Below, in pieces: positions 11,797 to 32,148 of a DNA stretch of 42,563 bases. Below the pieces are notes generated by a model. That model did no database searches and was not told the origin of the DNA. It worked only from the letters and a program-made list of their open reading frames with translations. Made by a program: the position numbers and the translations under genes. This DNA comes from Deltaproteobacteria bacterium (GTDB lineage Bacteria; Myxococcota_A; UBA9160; SZUA-336), in contig VGRW01000024.1 in the NCBI GenBank assembly GCA_016875225.1, forward strand, positions 1 through 42,563, given 5' to 3'. Numbering within the stretch: position 1 is the stretch's first letter; the number at the start of each line of letters is the position of its first letter.

Positions 11797-12705
11797 ATGG
11801 GCGAGCTGCGCGAGATCGCATCCGGATTGCTCTTCCCCGAGGGGCCGATCTCGCTCGAGGACGGCAGCGTCCTGCTGGTCGAGATCAAGCGGGGGACGCT
11901 TACGCGAGTCGCGTCCGACGGGGCCAGGACGATCGTGGCCAAGACCGGAGGCGGCCCGAACGGCGCGGCAATCGGACCCGACGGGAAGATCTACCTGTGC
12001 AACAACGGCGGCTTCGAGTGGCACGAGGCGGGTCCGTTCCTGCTGCCGGGAAACCAGCCGAAGGACTACGCCGGCGGCTCGATCCAGCGCGTCGACGCGA
12101 AGAGCGGCGCCGTCGAGACGCTCTACACGAAGTGCGGAGCGCATGCGCTGCGCGGGCCGAACGACCTGGTCTTCGACGCGACCGGCGGCTTCTGGTTCAC
12201 CGACCACGGCAAGACGCGCGAGCGCGATCGCGACCGCGGCGGGCTCTACTACGCGCGGCCCGACGGCTCGAGCATCCGCGAGGTCGTCTACCCGCTCGAC
12301 TCACCGAACGGCGTCGGGCTCTCCCCGGACGGCTCGCGTGTCTACGTCGCCGAGACGCACACCGGCCGGGTCTTCTGGTGGGACCTCTCCGCGCCCGGCC
12401 AGATCCGCCCGCACGCGTCGCCGAACGGCGGGCACCTGCTGGTCGGCCTGCCGGGGATGCAGCTGCTCGACTCGCTCGCCGTCGACGCGGAGGGAAACGT
12501 CTGCGTGGCGACGATCGTGAATGGCGGCATCACGATCATCTCGCCGGACGGGTCGCGGACCGAGCACGTGCCGATGCCCGACCCGCTCACCACCAACATC
12601 TGCTTCGGCGGCCCGGATCTGCGCACCGCGTTCATCACGCTCTCGGCCACGGGGCGGCTCGTCGCCGTGCCCTGGAAGACAGCGGGGCTGAGGCTCGCGT
12701 TCTAG
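11797..12705 (+). CDS. SMP-30/gluconolactonase/LRE family protein
   Basis: A 302-residue six-bladed beta-propeller lactonase. Metal-ligand regions are visible: Glu15 in LLFPEGPI, Asn in GPNDLVFD followed by GGFWFTDHGKTRERD, Asn in SPNGVGLSPDGSRVYVAET, and Asp in DSLAVDAEGNVCVATI. Members hydrolyse sugar lactones or other lactones with Ca or Zn. The ATG is preceded by CGGAGG at good spacing. A TAGAAT hexamer at 11774-11779 is a candidate -10, giving a short leader. Its TAG stop is shared as CTAG (12702-12705) with the convergent RCC1-repeat gene. The natural substrate is unknown. Confidence 0.92.
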   Translation: MGELREIASGLLFPEGPISLEDGSVLLVEIKRGTLTRVASDGARTIVAKTGGGPNGAAIGPDGKIYLCNNGGFEWHEAGPFLLPGNQPKDYAGGSIQRVDAKSGAVETLYTKCGAHALRGPNDLVFDATGGFWFTDHGKTRERDRDRGGLYYARPDGSSIREVVYPLDSPNGVGLSPDGSRVYVAETHTGRVFWWDLSAPGQIRPHASPNGGHLLVGLPGMQLLDSLAVDAEGNVCVATIVNGGITIISPDGSRTEHVPMPDPLTTNICFGGPDLRTAFITLSATGRLVAVPWKTAGLRLAF

Positions 12706-15248
12706 TCGCAGCTCCCCGCGGTGCCGGCGGTGCACTCGAGCGGGCAGGACGGGCACTTCGGGCCGGCGACCTTTCCGGCAAGCCCCCGGTACACCACCAG
12801 ATCGGCCGAGTTGATCAGCGCGCCCGACTGGTCGAGGTCGTATCTCGCGCACGGATCCGAGCCGCTCGTCCCGCAGACGTCCTGCGCGCGGCTCTTGCCG
12901 CTGCTGGCGCGGTACTGGGTCAGGTCGGCCGTGCCGACCAGCGCGCCGGTTGCCGTGAAATCCGCGTCGCAGCGATTTCCGTAGCCGTCGTGGTCGTCGT
13001 CCCGCTGGCCGCCCGTGAGCGTCGCCCACGGGTTTGTCACGAGGAAGTCCGCGGCCTCGCGCGGATTCGGAGCGGCCGTGCAGTTGTCGCAGGCGTCGCC
13101 GACCAGATCCCCGTCGCCGTCCGCCTGGTCCGCGTTCGCGAGCGCCGGGCAGTTGTCGCAGGCGTCGCCGTCGAGGTCACCGTCCACGTCGGCCTGGTCG
13201 GCGTTCGCGACGGCCGCGCAGTTGTCGCACGCATCTCCGACCAGATCCCCGTCGCCGTCCGCCTGGTCCGCGTTCGCGAGCGCCGGGCAGTTGTCGCTCG
13301 CGTCGGGGACGCCGTCACCGTCGGCGTCGGGCTCGGGCGCGAGTGCGCGGATCGCCAGGCTGTGGCTCCCGCCCGCTGCGATCGCGGTGGCGCCTCCGGT
13401 GGTTCCGTCAACCGAGGCCGGCGGCGTTGCCTGGCCGTAGAAGTTCCCGCCCCAGCAAACGACGGCCGCGCTCCCGCTCTGGATTGCGCAGCTCTGCGCG
13501 CTGCCCAACGCGAGCGCGGAAGCGGTGCCGGACGTGCCGTTCACAGAGGCCGGCGGTGTCGCTGCTCCGGAGCTGTTCGAGCCCCAGCAGATGACCGCGT
13601 CGGTCCCGCTCTGGATCGCGCAGCTTCGCGATCCGCCGGCGGCGACGGCGCTGGCGCTTCCCGCGACGCCGTTCACCGAGTCGGGCGGCGTCGATTGCCC
13701 GGAGCCGTTGGCTCCCCAGCACACGACCGCTCCGGTTCCGCTCTGGATCGCGCAAGCGTGCTGCAGCCCCGCCGCGACCCGGATCGCGCTGCCCGAGCTG
13801 CCGTTCACCGAGGCCGGCGGCGTCGCCTGCCCGAGCCCGCCGTCGCCCCAGCACACGACCGCGCCGGTGCCGCTCTGGACCGCGCAGCTGTGGTGCAGTC
13901 CGGCGGCGATCCCGAGCGCGCCCCCGGAGCTGCCGTTCACCGACGCCGGCGGCGTCGACTTTCCGAATGCGTTGTCGCCCCAACACACGACGGCGTCGGT
14001 CTCGGTCTGGATCGCGCACTCGTGGAACTCGCCCGCCGCGATCGCCGACGCGGTTCCCGAGCTGCCGTTCACGGAAGGCGGCACCACCGTCTGACCGTAG
14101 TCGTTGCGCCCCCAGCAGACGGCCGCAAGGCTTCCGCTCTGGATCGCACAGCCGTGCAGGCCGCCCGCCGAGACGGCGGCCGCGTTGCCGGACACCCCGT
14201 TCACCGGGTCCGGCGGCGTCGACTGCCCGAAGTAGACGCCGCCCCAACACACCACGGCACCGGTTCCGCTCTGGATCGCGCAGCTGTCGATGGCGCCGGC
14301 GGCGATTCCCGCTGCTCCGCCGGAGCTGCCGTCGACGGAGGACGGAGGCATCGCCTGCTCGGATCCGTCGCTTCCCCAACAGACGACGGCCGCGGGCACT
14401 CCGCTCCGGATCGCGCAGCTGTGCGACGTGCCCGCCGCGATGGCGGTGGCTGTCCCCGAGGTTCCGTTCACGGAGGATGGCGGCGTCGACTGCCCGTAGC
14501 CGTCCGACCCCCAGCACACGACGGCCTCGGTTCCGCTCTGGATCGCGCAGCTGTGCGACCCGCCCGCGGCGATCGCCGTGGCGCTGCCGGAGCTGCCGTC
14601 GACGGAGGCCGGAGGCGTCGCTTCTCCGCCGGAATCGTCTCCCCAGCAGACGACCGCTCCGGTTCCGCTCTGGATCGCGCAGCTGTGCTCCGTTCCCGTC
14701 GCGATCGCCGATGCGCTTCCCGAGCTGCCGTCGACGGAAGCCGGCGGCGTCGCCTGGCCGAGCGCGTTGTCGCCCCAGCAGACGACTGCATCGGTGCCGC
14801 TCTGGATCGCGCAGGCGTGCCGCCAGCCCGCGGCGATCGCCGTCGCTGCGCCGCTACTGCCGTTCACCGACGGCGGAGGGGTCGCACGCCCGTAGGTGTT
14901 GGATCCCCAGCAGACGACCGCGCCCGTGCCGGACTGGACCGCGCAGGCGTAGTTCAGTCCGGCGGCGATCGCGGCGGCGGTGCCGGAAGCGCCGTTCACG
15001 GAGGCCGGAGGCACCGTCGATCCCAGCGCGTTGTAGCCCCAGCAGACCACGGCGCCGCTGCCGCTCTCGATTGCGCAGGAATGCGCGTACCCTGCCGAGA
15101 GTGCAGACGCGCTGACGGCCGGCGGCGCGCCCGAGCCCCAGCCGACCACGGGCCCGTCCGCAATCGCGCTTGCGGCGACGCTCAGCGCAAGCGCGATTGC
15201 GCCGGCCACTGCGAGCAGACGCGGCCGTATCACTGTCGAGGAACGCAT
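12702..15248 (-). CDS. Secreted RCC1-repeat protein with TSP3 calcium loops and dockerin-like C-terminus
   Basis: An 848-residue modular secreted protein. Order of modules: signal peptide (about 1-30), a short linker, thirteen 44-45-residue RCC1/BLIP-II-like repeats (about 51-623), three to four TSP3-type Asp-rich calcium loops (about 640-728), two dockerin-like DxDxxG segments (TATGALVGTADLTQYR; DLDQSGALINSADLVVYR), and a Cys-rich tail. Every repeat follows AGxxHxCAIQSGTxAVVCWG, with Cys at two fixed places, suggesting disulfides that staple each propeller blade. Thirteen blades exceed the seven of classical RCC1. No catalytic motif is seen. A binding, adhesion or surface-scaffold role is likely. 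ATG 15248 has GGAG upstream, beyond which two 12-bp tandem repeats lie. Confidence 0.93.
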   Translation of the reverse strand: MRSSTVIRPRLLAVAGAIALALSVAASAIADGPVVGWGSGAPPAVSASALSAGYAHSCAIESGSGAVVCWGYNALGSTVPPASVNGASGTAAAIAAGLNYACAVQSGTGAVVCWGSNTYGRATPPPSVNGSSGAATAIAAGWRHACAIQSGTDAVVCWGDNALGQATPPASVDGSSGSASAIATGTEHSCAIQSGTGAVVCWGDDSGGEATPPASVDGSSGSATAIAAGGSHSCAIQSGTEAVVCWGSDGYGQSTPPSSVNGTSGTATAIAAGTSHSCAIRSGVPAAVVCWGSDGSEQAMPPSSVDGSSGGAAGIAAGAIDSCAIQSGTGAVVCWGGVYFGQSTPPDPVNGVSGNAAAVSAGGLHGCAIQSGSLAAVCWGRNDYGQTVVPPSVNGSSGTASAIAAGEFHECAIQTETDAVVCWGDNAFGKSTPPASVNGSSGGALGIAAGLHHSCAVQSGTGAVVCWGDGGLGQATPPASVNGSSGSAIRVAAGLQHACAIQSGTGAVVCWGANGSGQSTPPDSVNGVAGSASAVAAGGSRSCAIQSGTDAVICWGSNSSGAATPPASVNGTSGTASALALGSAQSCAIQSGSAAVVCWGGNFYGQATPPASVDGTTGGATAIAAGGSHSLAIRALAPEPDADGDGVPDASDNCPALANADQADGDGDLVGDACDNCAAVANADQADVDGDLDGDACDNCPALANADQADGDGDLVGDACDNCTAAPNPREAADFLVTNPWATLTGGQRDDDHDGYGNRCDADFTATGALVGTADLTQYRASSGKSRAQDVCGTSGSDPCARYDLDQSGALINSADLVVYRGLAGKVAGPKCPSCPLECTAGTAGSCD
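13099..13297. repeat. 61-bp perfect direct repeat inside the TSP3 coding region
   Basis: 13099-13159 and 13237-13297 are identical over 61 bp, offset by 138 bp. This equals two 23-residue TSP3 units. The unit between them is diverged. It points to a recent duplication or gene conversion within the calcium-loop array. Confidence 0.9.
13380..15098 (-). repeat. Thirteen 132-135-bp tandem RCC1-like coding repeats
   Basis: Repeats of 44 residues (45 in the sixth) encode AGxxHxCAIQSGT, AVVCWG and TPPASVNGSSG. The codon sequence between copies is well diverged, so the array is old at the DNA level compared with the TSP3 duplication. A fourteenth, truncated copy lacking CWG follows. Confidence 0.92.
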
Positions 15249-15358: not shown

Positions 15359-16375
15359 CTACAGGGTGCGCGTCACCTTCGAGATTCCTGCCGGGCGGTC
15401 AGGGTCGCGGCCGCGGGCGCGCGCAAGCCAGAACGCGAGCAGCTGACCGGCAACTGCGGCGGGGATCGGGGCGAGCCACTCGTCCGCGAGGGGAAGCCGC
15501 AGATCCGCACCGATCTCGTCGGAGATGCGCACGAGCCGCGCGCCGCGCTCGACCAGGTCGAGGCCGAGCCTGCGCACGTCGCCGCGCGCGGGACCGGCGA
15601 GCTCGATCGTGAAGACCGGCGCGCCGGACGAGGCGAGCGCGATCGGGCCGTGGCGATAGTCGGCGGCCGAGAAGGGCTCGGCGAAGACGCCGGAGAGCTC
15701 CTTCAGCTTGAGCGCCCATTCCAGGGCGACCGGAAAGCCGTAGCCGCGCCCGATCAGCGCGCAGGACGCGTGCGACGCGAGCGCATTCGCGAGATCGCGC
15801 ACTTCTGGCTGGATCGCGAGCGAGCGCGATGCGAGCTCCGGCACGAGCGCGAGCGACGGCTCGTCCTCGCCGCGCATTCCCGCGACCAGATGTGCGAGCG
15901 CGTAGAGCGTGGTCGTGAACGATCCCGTCGCCGCCACCGAGCGCTCGCCGCCCAGGTGGAGCGGCACGACGTGCTCGGCGGCCGCGGCGAGCGGCGAGTC
16001 GACGCGGTCGGTGATCGCGAGCGTGGGCGCGCCCTGCGCGCGGGCGACCTCGATCACGCGCACGACGTCGGGCGAGGCGCCGGACTGCGAGATCGCGATC
16101 GCGAGCCAGCCCGCGAGCCGAGGCGCGCGCTCGTAGATGGTGAACAGCGACGGCGCCGCCAGCGCGACGGGGATCCGCGCGCGCGCGCCGAGCAGGTACT
16201 TCGCGTACACCGCCGCGTGGTCGGAGCTGCCGCGCGCTGCGATCATCACGCCCGCGGGCTGCCGCGCGGCGAGCTCCGCGCCGAGCACACGCAGCTTCGC
16301 GCCCTCGGCCACCCGGAAGTGCTCGAGCCGATCCGGCTGCGCGAAGATCTCGCGCGCGAGCTCCGATTCGCTCAT
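15359..16375 (-). CDS. Double-SIS-domain sugar isomerase/deaminase (NagB-II / GlmS isomerase-like)
   Basis: A 338-residue protein with two SIS domains (about 25-170 and 195-335). Motifs are ARGSSDHAAVYAKY, AISQSGASPDVV, TGSFTTTLYAL, KLKELSGVFAEPFSAADYRHG and the C-terminal DPDRPAGISKVTRT, which matches the GlmS isomerase end. The glutaminase domain is absent. This is the make-up of type II glucosamine-6-phosphate deaminases and of AgaS/FrlB-like enzymes, which interconvert amino-sugar and keto-sugar phosphates. The substrate is uncertain. ATG 16375 has a GGGGGACAG purine run upstream and a TAGCCT -10-like hexamer (complement 16391-16396). It is divergent from galM with 33 bp between start codons. 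Confidence 0.9.
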   Translation of the reverse strand: MSESELAREIFAQPDRLEHFRVAEGAKLRVLGAELAARQPAGVMIAARGSSDHAAVYAKYLLGARARIPVALAAPSLFTIYERAPRLAGWLAIAISQSGASPDVVRVIEVARAQGAPTLAITDRVDSPLAAAAEHVVPLHLGGERSVAATGSFTTTLYALAHLVAGMRGEDEPSLALVPELASRSLAIQPEVRDLANALASHASCALIGRGYGFPVALEWALKLKELSGVFAEPFSAADYRHGPIALASSGAPVFTIELAGPARGDVRRLGLDLVERGARLVRISDEIGADLRLPLADEWLAPIPAAVAGQLLAFWLARARGRDPDRPAGISKVTRTL

Positions 16376-16390
16376 CTGTCCCCCGAGCCG

Positions 16391-16400
16391 AGGCTACCAT
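16391..16400. promoter_or_regulatory. Overlapping divergent -10-like boxes of the SIS gene and galM
   Basis: TAGCCT on the minus strand (16391-16396) faces the SIS gene, and TACCAT on the plus strand (16395-16400) faces galM. They share two bases, so polymerase could probably serve only one direction at a time. TACCAT ends eight bases before the galM ATG, suggesting a leaderless galM message. Confidence 0.4.
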
Positions 16401-16408
16401 TCCCGGCG

Positions 16409-17509: not shown

Positions 17510-18655
17510 TCAGGATCGGGGCAGACCGAGAATCCGCTCCGCGACGATGTTCTTCTGGATCTCGCTGGTGCCGCCCGCGATCGTCTGAGCGCGATCGCCG
17601 AGCCAGCGCATCGCCACCGCGCGCGCGTCCGTCGCCTGGCCGTGGCTCTCGTAGAGCTGACCGTAGGCGCCGAGCAGCGCGAGGTGCGCGGTCGACATCC
17701 GCTGCGCGAGGGACGTCCCGGCGAGCTTCATCGCCGCGGACAGGTGCGGATTCAGGCGGCCGTTCAGCCCGTCGGTCATGCCGCGGTAGCCGGAGTACTT
17801 CGAGATCGCGCACGCGGTCGCGAGCTCCGCGATCTCCTGGCGGGTGCGCGGGTCCGCGCTCTTGCCGCGCCGCTTCGCGGCCGCGATCAGGCGCTGAAGC
17901 GTCTCGTCCTGGCGCATGCCGCCGGCGATTCCGTTTCGCTCGTTCACGAGCGCGCCCGAGATGATCTTCCAACCCTCGCCCTCCGCGCCGAGCCGGTTCG
18001 CCACCGGCACGCGCGCGTCGGTCATGAACACCTCGTTGAACTCCGAATCGCCGGTGATCTGCACGATCGGCTTCACTTCCATGCCCGGCGCGTTCATCTC
18101 CATCAGCAGCACCGTCAGACCGTCGTACTTCGAGTCGCCCATTCCCGGCACGCGCACCAGGCAGAAGTACCAGTTCGAGAGGTGCGCGATCGTGGTCCAG
18201 ATCTTCTGTCCGTTCACCACGTAGTGGTCGCCGTCGCGGACCGCGCGCGTCTGCGTGTTGAACATGTCGGAGCCCGCGCCCGGCTCGGAGTAGCCGGTGG
18301 CCCAGATGTCCTCGCCCGACAGGATTCGCGCGACGAACTTCTGCTTCTGCGCTTCGGTGCCGAACTTCATGATCGCCGGCCCGACCCACCAGATGCCCAT
18401 CTGCCCGGGCACGCCCGGCGCCTTCGCGCGCGTGAGCTCCTCGGACAGGATCGCCTGCTCCATGTCGGAGAGCCCCGCGCCGCCGTACTCCTTCGGCCAG
18501 GCCGCGCCGAGGAAGCCGCCGGCGTGCAGCTTTCGCTGCCAGGCCTTGCCGTCCTCGAGCGAGAGCGGGCCCTTCTGCGCGGGCGCGTTCTTCTCCAGCC
18601 AGGTGCGAACTTTGCTTCGAAAGGCCTCTTCCTCGGGCGTATAGTTCAGATCCAT
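17510..18655 (-). CDS. Acyl-CoA dehydrogenase family protein
   Basis: The 381-residue FAD enzyme introduces an alpha-beta double bond into an acyl-CoA. Features are the N-terminal helical domain (DLNYTPEEEAFRSKVRTWL, GAAWPKEYGGAGLSDMEQA), the beta-domain FAD/substrate motif ATGYSEPGAGSD, NGQKIWTTIAHLSNW, the GALVNERNGIAGG helix with a candidate catalytic Glu, and the C-terminal AQTIAGGTSEIQKNIVAERILGLPR. It resembles FadE enzymes of steroid or branched acyl-CoA pathways. ATG 18655 shares bases with the ATG of the divergent secreted-protein gene. TAGGAT (complement 18663-18668) lies seven bases upstream, so the message is probably leaderless. Confidence 0.93.
   Translation of the reverse strand: MDLNYTPEEEAFRSKVRTWLEKNAPAQKGPLSLEDGKAWQRKLHAGGFLGAAWPKEYGGAGLSDMEQAILSEELTRAKAPGVPGQMGIWWVGPAIMKFGTEAQKQKFVARILSGEDIWATGYSEPGAGSDMFNTQTRAVRDGDHYVVNGQKIWTTIAHLSNWYFCLVRVPGMGDSKYDGLTVLLMEMNAPGMEVKPIVQITGDSEFNEVFMTDARVPVANRLGAEGEGWKIISGALVNERNGIAGGMRQDETLQRLIAAAKRRGKSADPRTRQEIAELATACAISKYSGYRGMTDGLNGRLNPHLSAAMKLAGTSLAQRMSTAHLALLGAYGQLYESHGQATDARAVAMRWLGDRAQTIAGGTSEIQKNIVAERILGLPRS
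18640..18645 (+). promoter_or_regulatory. -10-like TATAGT of the Cys-rich secreted protein gene
   Basis: TATAGT (five of six consensus positions) ends eight bases before ATG 18654. It lies within codons 4-6 of the divergent acyl-CoA dehydrogenase gene. With transcription starting about seven bases later the mRNA would begin at or next to the ATG. Confidence 0.5.
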
Positions 18656-20087
18656 GGCGGCGATCCTATCACCGGGGCGCCGGCGGATTCTCGTCCTGCT
18701 CGCGCTGTGGCTCGGAGCGGGAACGGCACACGGCGGTCCCTGCGATCTGCTCGGCGGCGACGGGGACGGCGACGGGATCTGCGACGATGGAAGCGCCTCC
18801 GGGACGGTCGGCGACCTGCCCTGCTCGTGCCCGGCAGGCGCGCCGCCGGAGTGCATCGCTGGCTGCGACGACAACTGCCCCTGGCTCGCGAACCCGACAC
18901 AGCTCGATGTCGGCCGCGTGGGCGATCCGGACCTGCCCGACGGCATCGGCGACGCATGTCAGTGTCACGACGCGAGCGACGACGGGCGCGGGAACGTGCT
19001 CGACTCGGTCCTGTACGCGCGCGCGGCCGCGAGCCTGCTCCCCGATCTCGCGGCGCCCGGGAAATGCCGCGGCCCCGGTCCGGCGGCCTGCGACGCGGGC
19101 GACGTCGCGAGCCTGCGCGCGGCGCTCGCCACCCCGGCCGCGCCGCCCGTCGCCACCTGCCTGGCCTCGGGCGCCTGCACCGCGAGCGCGGACTGCCCGG
19201 CCGGAATCGCCTGCGACCTGGCCGAAGAGCTCTGCGCGAAGAACGCCGGCCAGGCCTGCGTGCAGAACGACCAGTGCCTCTCGAACGGCTGCTGCGCCGA
19301 CGTCTGCGCCGACCTGGAGACCGACGTCGCGAACTGCGGCGCCTGCGGCTTCGGCTGCACGAACGCTCACGGCACGACGAGCTGCCTCGCGAGCGAGTGC
19401 GCGCCGGTCTGCACGGGGCTCTGGGGTGACTGCGACGGCCACCCCGAGGACGGCTGCGACACCTCGCTCGAGACGCCCTCGCACTGCGGCGCCTGCGGCG
19501 TCCACTGCGGCCCGATTCCGCACGCGGCCGAGACCTGCGCCGGCGGGACCTGCGGGATCTCGTACTGCCACGGCGGTTGGGCGAACTGCAACGCCGAGCT
19601 CGGCGACGGCTGCGAGATCTCGCTCAACTCCTGTGGCAGCGCCGCCTGCTGCACCAGCTCGGCTCTCGGCAGCGTCGCGGGAGACGGCCCCGGCTGCTCG
19701 GCATTCGCCAGCCAGAGCGATCGCGGTGAGACCTGTTTCACCGCGGCTTTCCGCGAGGACGACTCAGGCTGTGCTCCGGTCGCGGGCCTGATCGAGCTCG
19801 TCGCCCCTGCAGACGTGAACTACAACCTCTATCTGACTGTCCCCGCGGGGGTGACCTGCCAGCGCTGGACCGGCAGCTTCTGGACCGCCTCGGCGAGCTG
19901 CGCCAGCACGAACGGGATGGGCATCGCCGACAAGGTGCGCTTCGTCAACGCCGAGAGCTGCACACCGCCGGGCCCCGGCGACCTGGTCGACCAGACCGTG
20001 AGCGTCAGTGTCGAGATCCGCTTCAACAACGGCTACGGCTGCGGGAACTGGACGCTCACCGCGTCGGGCGGGAGCGGCTGCTACTGA
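18654..20087 (+). CDS. Secreted Cys-rich protein with TSP3-like and dockerin-like segments
   Basis: A 477-residue exported protein. It has a signal peptide (RRRILVLLALWLGAGTAHG), then an Asp-rich TSP3-like calcium region (GGDGDGDGICDDG, DDNCPWLANP), a dockerin-like pair (DDGRGNVLDSVLYARAAAS; CDAGDVASLRAAL), then a long Cys-rich middle. The middle repeats CGACGxxC and DGxxxDGCExS/T, as in many myxobacterial surface proteins. The C-terminus is a beta-rich domain (NYNLYLTVPAGVTCQRW, SVSVEIRFNNGYGCGNWTLTA). No enzyme motif is seen. ATG 18654 is the only standard start before the signal peptide. It overlaps the divergent ATG by two bases and has TATAGT eight bases upstream. Likely role: cell-surface or matrix protein stabilised by disulfides and calcium. 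Confidence 0.88.
   Translation: MAAILSPGRRRILVLLALWLGAGTAHGGPCDLLGGDGDGDGICDDGSASGTVGDLPCSCPAGAPPECIAGCDDNCPWLANPTQLDVGRVGDPDLPDGIGDACQCHDASDDGRGNVLDSVLYARAAASLLPDLAAPGKCRGPGPAACDAGDVASLRAALATPAAPPVATCLASGACTASADCPAGIACDLAEELCAKNAGQACVQNDQCLSNGCCADVCADLETDVANCGACGFGCTNAHGTTSCLASECAPVCTGLWGDCDGHPEDGCDTSLETPSHCGACGVHCGPIPHAAETCAGGTCGISYCHGGWANCNAELGDGCEISLNSCGSAACCTSSALGSVAGDGPGCSAFASQSDRGETCFTAAFREDDSGCAPVAGLIELVAPADVNYNLYLTVPAGVTCQRWTGSFWTASASCASTNGMGIADKVRFVNAESCTPPGPGDLVDQTVSVSVEIRFNNGYGCGNWTLTASGGSGCY
18663..18668 (-). promoter_or_regulatory. -10-like TAGGAT of the acyl-CoA dehydrogenase gene
   Basis: On the minus strand TAGGAT ends seven bases before the ATG at 18655. It lies inside codons 4-5 of the divergent secreted-protein gene. 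It mirrors the TATAGT box on the other side of the shared start codons. Part of it (AGGA) could alternatively act as a Shine-Dalgarno sequence. Confidence 0.45.
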
Positions 20088-30505: not shown

Positions 30506-30525
30506 GTGCGCGCGGGAGGCCGCGT

Positions 30526-32148
30526 CTAGGGCCGGGGGCAGGCGTCGCCGAAACCGTCCTTGTCGGAATCGGCCTGGTCGGGATTGGCGAGGAAGGGGCA
30601 GACGTCGCAGCCGTCGGGATGGCCGTCCTGGTCCCGGTCGAGCTCCGAAGGCAGGCAGCCCGGAGTGCCGCAGGGCACGTCGCGCGCCCCGAATCGGCAG
30701 ACACGGTACGGTGTCGACTCGAGGAACCGGGCCCAGTTCACGTAGATGGCGCTTCCGATCACGAGCTTCTCGCAGTTTCCCGAGCGCGCCGTCTGCTTCG
30801 AGCGGCAGCCCGCCGGGTTCGGGTCCTTCATGCGGATGCGCGGGTAGATCGCGCCGTCCGAGATCGCGAGCGCGTCGAGCTCGAGCCGGCACAGGTCGCG
30901 CCCGTCGATACTGCGCGTGCACGGTGCGGACGCGAGCACACGGTCGCTCGCGTCGACGAGCTCGACGACGTCGAAGCGCCGGGTCAGGCGCGGATCCCCG
31001 TTCGCGTTGCGCGGATCGTTCAGCGCCAGCAGGTGGACGTCGACCCGGCCGTCCGGCGCATCGAGCCTGGCTCCCATCGGCAGCCACGCGCTCCGCTTGC
31101 CCGCGCGCATCTCGAAGCGGAGCGCGGGCTTCCCAGAGCCCGAGTAGTAGCAGCGGCGCGCGTGCATCGCGTCGATCAGCGCCTCGCGCGTTCGCGCCCG
31201 CACCCAGCAGACCGTCGCGCCGTTGCGCAGCGACGCGGCGCTGCGCGGGCCCTTCGCGTCGTGACTGTCGGAGCCGAAGGCCGGGAACACGCGGTATCCC
31301 AGGCGCAGCGCGCGCTGGTAGCTCGGCTCCCACTCCGGGTCGCGCTTGCCGGAGCTGACCTCGACGCCCTGCACGAACGCGTCCGAGAAGCCGCCGGGAG
31401 CGTTGCGCGGGTGCAGAGGCCGCAGGTCCATCGCGTCGGCCGCGCCGGGGTGCGCCTGGATCAGTACGCCCTGCGGCAGGCTCGAGGTCGCGAGCCAGCG
31501 GTAGAGCCGGAACTCGTCGGCGCAGTACTCGTCGCCGCGGAGCCGCCCGTCCTCCGCGCAGAGCCCGAGCGTCTCGGCGGGCAGGATCACGATCTTGTGT
31601 CCGCCCTCGCGAGGTCCGACACCCTTCGGTGTGAACGCGTAGTTGGTGAACTCGCGGCCCGTGAGCGCGAGGAATCCGCCCGGCCCCTCCACGGTCCTGG
31701 ACGTCGCGAGCCGCGAGAGCGCGAGCGCCTCGTTCGCGCGGGGGTCCAGCACCGCTCCCTCCGCGGCCATCGCGTCGGGGAAGCCCGCGGGCGTGACGTT
31801 CATCGACCACCAGCGGTACTTCTCGCTCGCCGTCTCCAGGCAGACGTTCGCGATCGCTCCGGGATGGTTCGTGTCGTGGTGCGAGAGGCTGCCCCACTCG
31901 TAGCCGGCCTCGCGCAGCGCGTCGTAGGCGTCGGCGCTCGAGCCGTTCTCGTGCAGGCCGCCCGGGAACCCGGGCACCGGCGGCTCGCGCTGGAGTCGCT
32001 CGATCATCCAGAGCGTTGCCGCGTGCTGGTGGCTGTCGCCGGCGGCGAGACTCATTCCCGCGTACGCATCCGGCAGCTCGCCGGCGCGTGCGGCCGCGGC
32101 GATCGCGAGCAGGAGCTGCAGCGCGAGCGTGCCCGCGCGCAAGCTCAA
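30526..32148 (-). CDS. Secreted PHP-type phosphoesterase with C-terminal TSP3 calcium loop
   Basis: The 540-residue exported protein starts with a signal peptide (TLALQLLLAIAAAARAG). A PHP-like metallohydrolase domain follows: AAGDSHQHAA (His40, His42), WGSLSHHDTNHPG, QAHPGAADAMD, and FGSDSHDAKG carry the expected metal-binding His/Asp. A beta-rich domain (about 335-450) precedes a Cys-containing C-terminus with a TSP3-type loop (DRDQDGHPDGCDVCPF, DSDKDGFGDACP). The combination of PHP and TSP3 is unusual. Substrate unknown. The start is TTG 32148, overlapping the TGA of the HIT gene; a second TTG six bases on is possible. Confidence 0.85.
   Translation of the reverse strand: MSLRAGTLALQLLLAIAAAARAGELPDAYAGMSLAAGDSHQHAATLWMIERLQREPPVPGFPGGLHENGSSADAYDALREAGYEWGSLSHHDTNHPGAIANVCLETASEKYRWWSMNVTPAGFPDAMAAEGAVLDPRANEALALSRLATSRTVEGPGGFLALTGREFTNYAFTPKGVGPREGGHKIVILPAETLGLCAEDGRLRGDEYCADEFRLYRWLATSSLPQGVLIQAHPGAADAMDLRPLHPRNAPGGFSDAFVQGVEVSSGKRDPEWEPSYQRALRLGYRVFPAFGSDSHDAKGPRSAASLRNGATVCWVRARTREALIDAMHARRCYYSGSGKPALRFEMRAGKRSAWLPMGARLDAPDGRVDVHLLALNDPRNANGDPRLTRRFDVVELVDASDRVLASAPCTRSIDGRDLCRLELDALAISDGAIYPRIRMKDPNPAGCRSKQTARSGNCEKLVIGSAIYVNWARFLESTPYRVCRFGARDVPCGTPGCLPSELDRDQDGHPDGCDVCPFLANPDQADSDKDGFGDACPRP

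Follow-up and report, generated by a model that had tools for sequence, protein, structure and literature searches.

Candidate leaderless promoters facing each other across the shared CATG of a divergent gene pair

How are two divergent genes transcribed when no base lies between them? In the window, the 42,563-nt stretch of DNA analyzed here, a single CATG at 18653-18656 houses the start codons of both an acyl-CoA dehydrogenase (ACAD) gene and a gene for a secreted protein. An earlier note on this DNA had proposed that each of these genes carries its −10 box inside the first codons of its partner. The CATG, the two ATGs, both hexamers and their distances of 7–8 nt proved exact to the base. 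The features of the junction are as follows.

17510..18655, minus strand: complete ACAD gene, 381 aa (PF02771, PF02770 and PF00441 above cut-off)
18640..18645, plus strand: TATAGT, predicted −10 box of the secreted-protein gene, within ACAD codons 4–6 (AAC-TAT-ACG)
18653..18656, no strand: shared CATG, start codons of both genes; 2-bp gene overlap
18654..20087, plus strand: gene for a secreted Cys-rich protein, 477 aa, with a likely signal peptide (coding score 79)
18663..18668, minus strand: TAGGAT, predicted −10 box of the ACAD gene, within secreted-protein codons 4–5 (ATC-CTA); includes AGGA, a possible Shine-Dalgarno sequence (SD)
18663..18671, minus strand: TGATAGGAT, the TG-extended minus box, with the TG given by codon TCA
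18687..18692, minus strand: GAGAAT, weak alternative −10 box for an SD-led ACAD gene with a leader of about 25 nt (score 5.5)

Geometry of the junction and the two gene starts

The plus-strand ATG occupies 18654-18656 and the minus-strand ATG occupies 18655-18653. TATAGT is separated from the former by 8 nt, and TAGGAT, which reads leftward from 18668 to 18663, is separated from the latter by 7 nt. A distance of 17 bp separates the two boxes, which point toward each other and enclose both starts. Both boxes, both start codons and the predicted start points of transcription are held within 29 bp, with zero intergenic length, and every base of both boxes is protein-coding, as had been claimed.

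Both gene starts are well fixed, in agreement with the earlier note. All class orthologues of the ACAD (55–63% identity) begin at the same residue, which secures its start by the family N-terminus. An earlier start of the plus-strand reading frame is impossible because an in-frame TAG at 18642-18644, itself part of TATAGT and followed by TTC-AGA-TCC, closes the frame. No ATG, GTG or TTG is found in this frame before 18654 or across the next 29 codons. No Pfam or NCBIfam family matched the secreted protein. A paralogue in the same genome (G000:C13) is 63% identical and possesses a signal peptide of matching length before a shared GPCDL. This paralogue has GATACT-CCGCCC-ATG at its start and no SD, in line with a leaderless secreted-protein gene. 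Its match is split over two frames that overlap (30522-31118 and 31103-31861; L156, G000:C13:30477-31861), a pattern that suggests a frameshift or an assembly error. Elsewhere in the window, a large secreted protein is encoded on the minus strand at 12702-15248, with CAIQSGTxAVVCWG repeats (RCC1-like) followed by DGDG/thrombospondin-type-3-like repeats.

Leaderless gene starts across the genome

Leaderless (TA-led) genes have a TANNNT −10 element that precedes the start codon by about 12 bp (Zheng 2011, PMC3160421; Deinococcus-Thermus, PMC12340547), and have been reported in 8 of 33 delta-proteobacterial genomes (PMC3160421). As a background we used 1.64 Mb of the window's own genome (GC of 70.6% in the first 0.84 Mb), in which gene starts were called with our own simple gene finder, based on a codon-pair model, yielding 1,166 confident starts. 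TANNNT hexamers peak with their first base at −16 to −12 (8, 18, 25, 23 and 45 hits); closer to the start codon, most positions have only 0–3. The enrichment in this zone is roughly tenfold and comes almost wholly from genes that lack an SD. Within the first half of the data set, TANNNT was present there in 58 of 287 SD-less genes, versus 7 of 313 genes with an SD. Two further samples, one from a same-genus genome and one from another genome of the class, showed the same peak in smaller numbers. The leaderless box of this genome reads roughly TAGGCT/TATACT and has no clear −35 partner; counted from the box, G is favored at position −2 and, weakly, T/G at −3. TCGAAA, which precedes TATAGT, was considered as a −35 element and given no weight because the leaderless boxes of this genome show none.

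An expectation-maximization mixture model, trained without the window pair and in three versions, classed roughly 22% of the genes as leaderless, 60% as SD-led and 18% as neither. The leaderless share was 31% for divergent genes versus 18% for tandem genes. Across the three versions, the leaderless posterior of the left-out pair was 0.83–0.98 for the ACAD gene and 0.88–0.96 for the secreted-protein gene, while the SD posteriors were 0.02–0.16 and 0.01–0.03, respectively. Both hexamers fit the leaderless −10 element of the genome in sequence and in position. TATAGT starts at −14, inside the −12 to −16 peak, and the secreted-protein gene has no SD. TAGGAT starts at −13, again at the TANNNT distance of leaderless genes; AGGA, inside the box itself, lies 8 nt from the ACAD start codon, and the ACAD orthologues have an SD. 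Over the 300 nt that precede its start, each hexamer is the sole TANNNT and the best-scoring −10 element.

Orthologues, codon choice and rival readings

The promoter reading of the earlier note is supported in part: by the fit of both hexamers, by the lack of another TANNNT within 300 nt, by the rare codons that coincide with the boxes and by a conserved second pair of abutting starts in the sister species (the last two below). Two facts pull the other way: TAGGAT has an AGGA placed where an SD would be, and TATAGT follows in part from the conserved N-terminus of the ACAD. Seven ACAD loci of the class (six of them independent) have AGGA(G) 4–10 nt before the ATG and write Tyr-5 as TAC, so that neither hexamer occurs in them. 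In two of these loci the ACAD gene lies in tandem after a dehydrogenase-like gene, and in two it diverges from a thiolase-like gene with a good TTGACA/TATGGT promoter upstream (partners named by inspection). The window pair has no counterpart in the other genomes searched, and the same-genus genome holds no orthologue. With only the orthologues to go by, we would take TAGGAT for an SD and TATAGT for an accident of codon use. The earlier note had held that its reading would be undermined by relatives that lack the boxes and have the two genes apart; such relatives do occur, but we read them as a sign that the arrangement is specific to the lineage rather than non-functional.

Our first hypothesis was that TAGGAT is merely the Shine-Dalgarno sequence of the ACAD gene, an idea that is strong from the orthologues and is weakened by the genome-wide signal. 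We keep it as a rival that is unlikely but deserves weight: only the secreted-protein gene would be leaderless, AGGA would serve as the ACAD SD, and the ACAD message would begin further inside the secreted-protein gene, for example from GAGAAT at 18692-18687 with a leader of about 25 nt. AGGA(G) stands at this distance in all class orthologues, and SD-led divergent genes in this genome often have a −10 box 25–40 nt upstream, which is the place of GAGAAT. However, the SD posterior of the ACAD gene is just 0.02–0.16, and GAGAAT is a weak box. Its score of 5.5 is reached in 4% of antisense coding 5′ ends, and, with stronger boxes set aside, chance yields boxes of this strength about as often as they occur in SD-led genes. 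TAGGAT is itself among the commonest leaderless boxes of the genome. Its six occurrences in the −16 to −9 zone all lie at −13 or −12, the leaderless peak, and an SD origin would scatter them more widely; none of 364 confident SD genes carries it, a count that is partly circular. Furthermore, codons 5 and 6 of the secreted protein are CTA (0.5% of Leu codons, 1.5% near starts) and TCA (0.8–0.9% of Ser codons, 2.1% near starts). These rare codons fall exactly on TGaTAGGAT, where they give the T-A and the TG, and an SD requires neither of them, since CTC would even improve it.

The plus box raises a different doubt. TAT makes up 7–8% of the Tyr codons of the genome, and ACADs that read MDLNYTPE with a TAT codon carry an antisense TATAGT in the same register with no leaderless partner, in a sample that the search method enriched for this peptide. 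In eight such ACADs (L064, L083, L087, L092, L118, L123, L124 and L126), a potential CATG start already has an antisense TATAGT at −14. The motif with TAT is thus predicted to write a latent antisense leaderless promoter, and because these ACADs carry TATAGT elsewhere, we regard the plus box as coding-born and possibly recruited rather than as independent proof. It probably arose from ACAD coding sequence and would have been recruited once the secreted-protein gene lay head-to-head with it. An initial suspicion, that TATAGT is merely the Asn-Tyr-Thr motif of the ACAD, is disfavored by the genome statistics. In its full form this becomes an improbable reading of the whole junction, in which TATAGT is no more than the family motif written as AAC-TAT-ACG and TAGGAT arose by chance or is a former SD, while undetected promoters drive one or both genes or the secreted-protein gene is scarcely expressed. 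The many unrelated MDLNYTPE ACADs are in line with such an accident, as is the bare CATG geometry (26–32 nt), which is no commoner in the family genomes than in a reversed control. Against this, an antisense TANNNT at the relevant offset is found in the first codons of only 6 of 765 ATG genes, two of which are the window genes. The chance of a CATG-sharing pair with both boxes rightly placed is about 3e-5 if they are independent, although about 5e-4 is fairer because MDLNYTPE can itself write TATAGT. The window is also the only one of 16 testable occurrences of the 26–32 nt geometry in the family genomes that is coding on both sides, and neither start has another TANNNT within 300 nt. Finally, an ordinary symmetric bidirectional promoter with one shared −10 element (Warman-type) appears very improbable. 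The genes do diverge, and neighboring pairs of this genome have overlapping back-to-back boxes, for example a sugar-isomerase-like (minus) and aldose-epimerase-like (plus) pair at 16375-16408 of the window, named by inspection and 33 nt apart, whose boxes GGCTACCAT and ATGGTAGCC form a candidate symmetric bidirectional promoter, and a divergent pair at C15 24121/24143. At the CATG junction, in contrast, the −10 boxes do not overlap, lie 17 bp apart, face each other and flank the starts.

A second pair, the proposed arrangement and known systems

Among 129 scored divergent pairs, both genes exceeded a leaderless posterior of 0.5 in 13, and only two of these have starts at most 5 nt apart, the window pair and a pair at G000:C12:16940-19239. 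The latter consists of divergent genes separated by 2 nt, one endonuclease/exonuclease-like and one serine-hydrolase-like (by inspection), whose leaderless posteriors are 0.89 and 0.98. The pair is kept in the same-genus genome G001 (L242), at 57% and 75% identity and with a gap of 0 (CAC/ATG). TATGCT is identical in both species and is written inside the codons of the partner with the Ile codon ATA, which accounts for 0.34% of Ile codons (1.6% near starts). In the other direction, GATTTT and GATGGT keep A2 and T6. In other families, the nuclease-like gene has orthologues with neither the hydrolase partner nor this Ile codon. The conservation of boxes that the earlier note had named as a check is thus found in this sister case, but not at the window pair. 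Another CATG-sharing divergent pair, sulfatase-like and luciferase-like monooxygenase-like, lies around G000:C4 46884-46886; one side is SD-led and the other ambiguous, and no equivalent junction appears in relatives of the plus gene.

We therefore favor, as the probable account of the window pair, two face-to-face leaderless promoters, each nested in the coding sequence of its partner. Two sigma-70-type core promoters facing each other would drive the divergent genes, such that the genes diverge while their promoters converge. The rightward RNA would start from TATAGT at about 18652-18654, and the leftward RNA, from the TG-extended TAGGAT in secreted-protein codons 4–6, at about 18657-18655. 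Because each message would begin at or within 1–2 nt of its AUG, neither would have an SD-bearing leader. These start points predict a transcript overlap of a few nucleotides at most, with each polymerase crossing the −10 box of the other. As each must run over the box of the other, only one polymerase would occupy the site at a time, and steric exclusion is predicted from the geometry. Promoter use, start points and exclusion are offered at the level of a proposal. A regulatory switch is possible; the effect of exclusion would depend on promoter strength.

More broadly, and as a speculation that we hold to be rather doubtful, the lineage may keep a class of divergent pairs with merged or abutting starts, in which the two leaderless promoters point at each other and are each held in the coding sequence of the partner by selection against codon bias, acting as an either-or switch or noise limiter without a regulator. 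The window pair itself, if our reading of it is true, would allow polymerase competition to be tested in a compact natural setting, along with the constraints that promoter signals and codon choice place on each other. Start-codon overlaps and apparent SDs might then hide promoters in GC-rich genomes that are rich in leaderless genes.

The window pair resembles known TA-led genes in its motif and its distance and, if leaderless, would need no SD, but differs in that its two starts are merged and each −10 element is coding sequence of the partner. A text search of PMC3160421 and PMC12340547 found no mention of divergent pairs. Where a bidirectional promoter has symmetric −10 elements, polymerase bound in one direction prevents binding in the other (Warman et al.; PMC12825309). 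At five such promoters of E. coli, basal firing was too low for competition, which set in once one direction was strongly activated (PMC12825309). The window pair is similar in that oppositely directed RNAs would leave one short stretch; the Warman-type starts, however, are placed within a single shared −10 element or to its two sides, whereas here the starts sit between two separate −10 elements of promoters that face each other. The divergent promoters of EcoRV-type restriction-modification systems are intergenic and controlled by a C protein (PMC5333194). They share with the window pair overlapping core promoters that exclude joint occupancy by polymerase, which in the window is implied by predicted start points a few bp apart, but the window pair lacks an intergenic region, and no regulator is known for it. 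Face-to-face leaderless promoter pairs were not found in the literature searched. Leaderless genes are a known bacterial habit, of which the window is probably an extreme and little-described layout.
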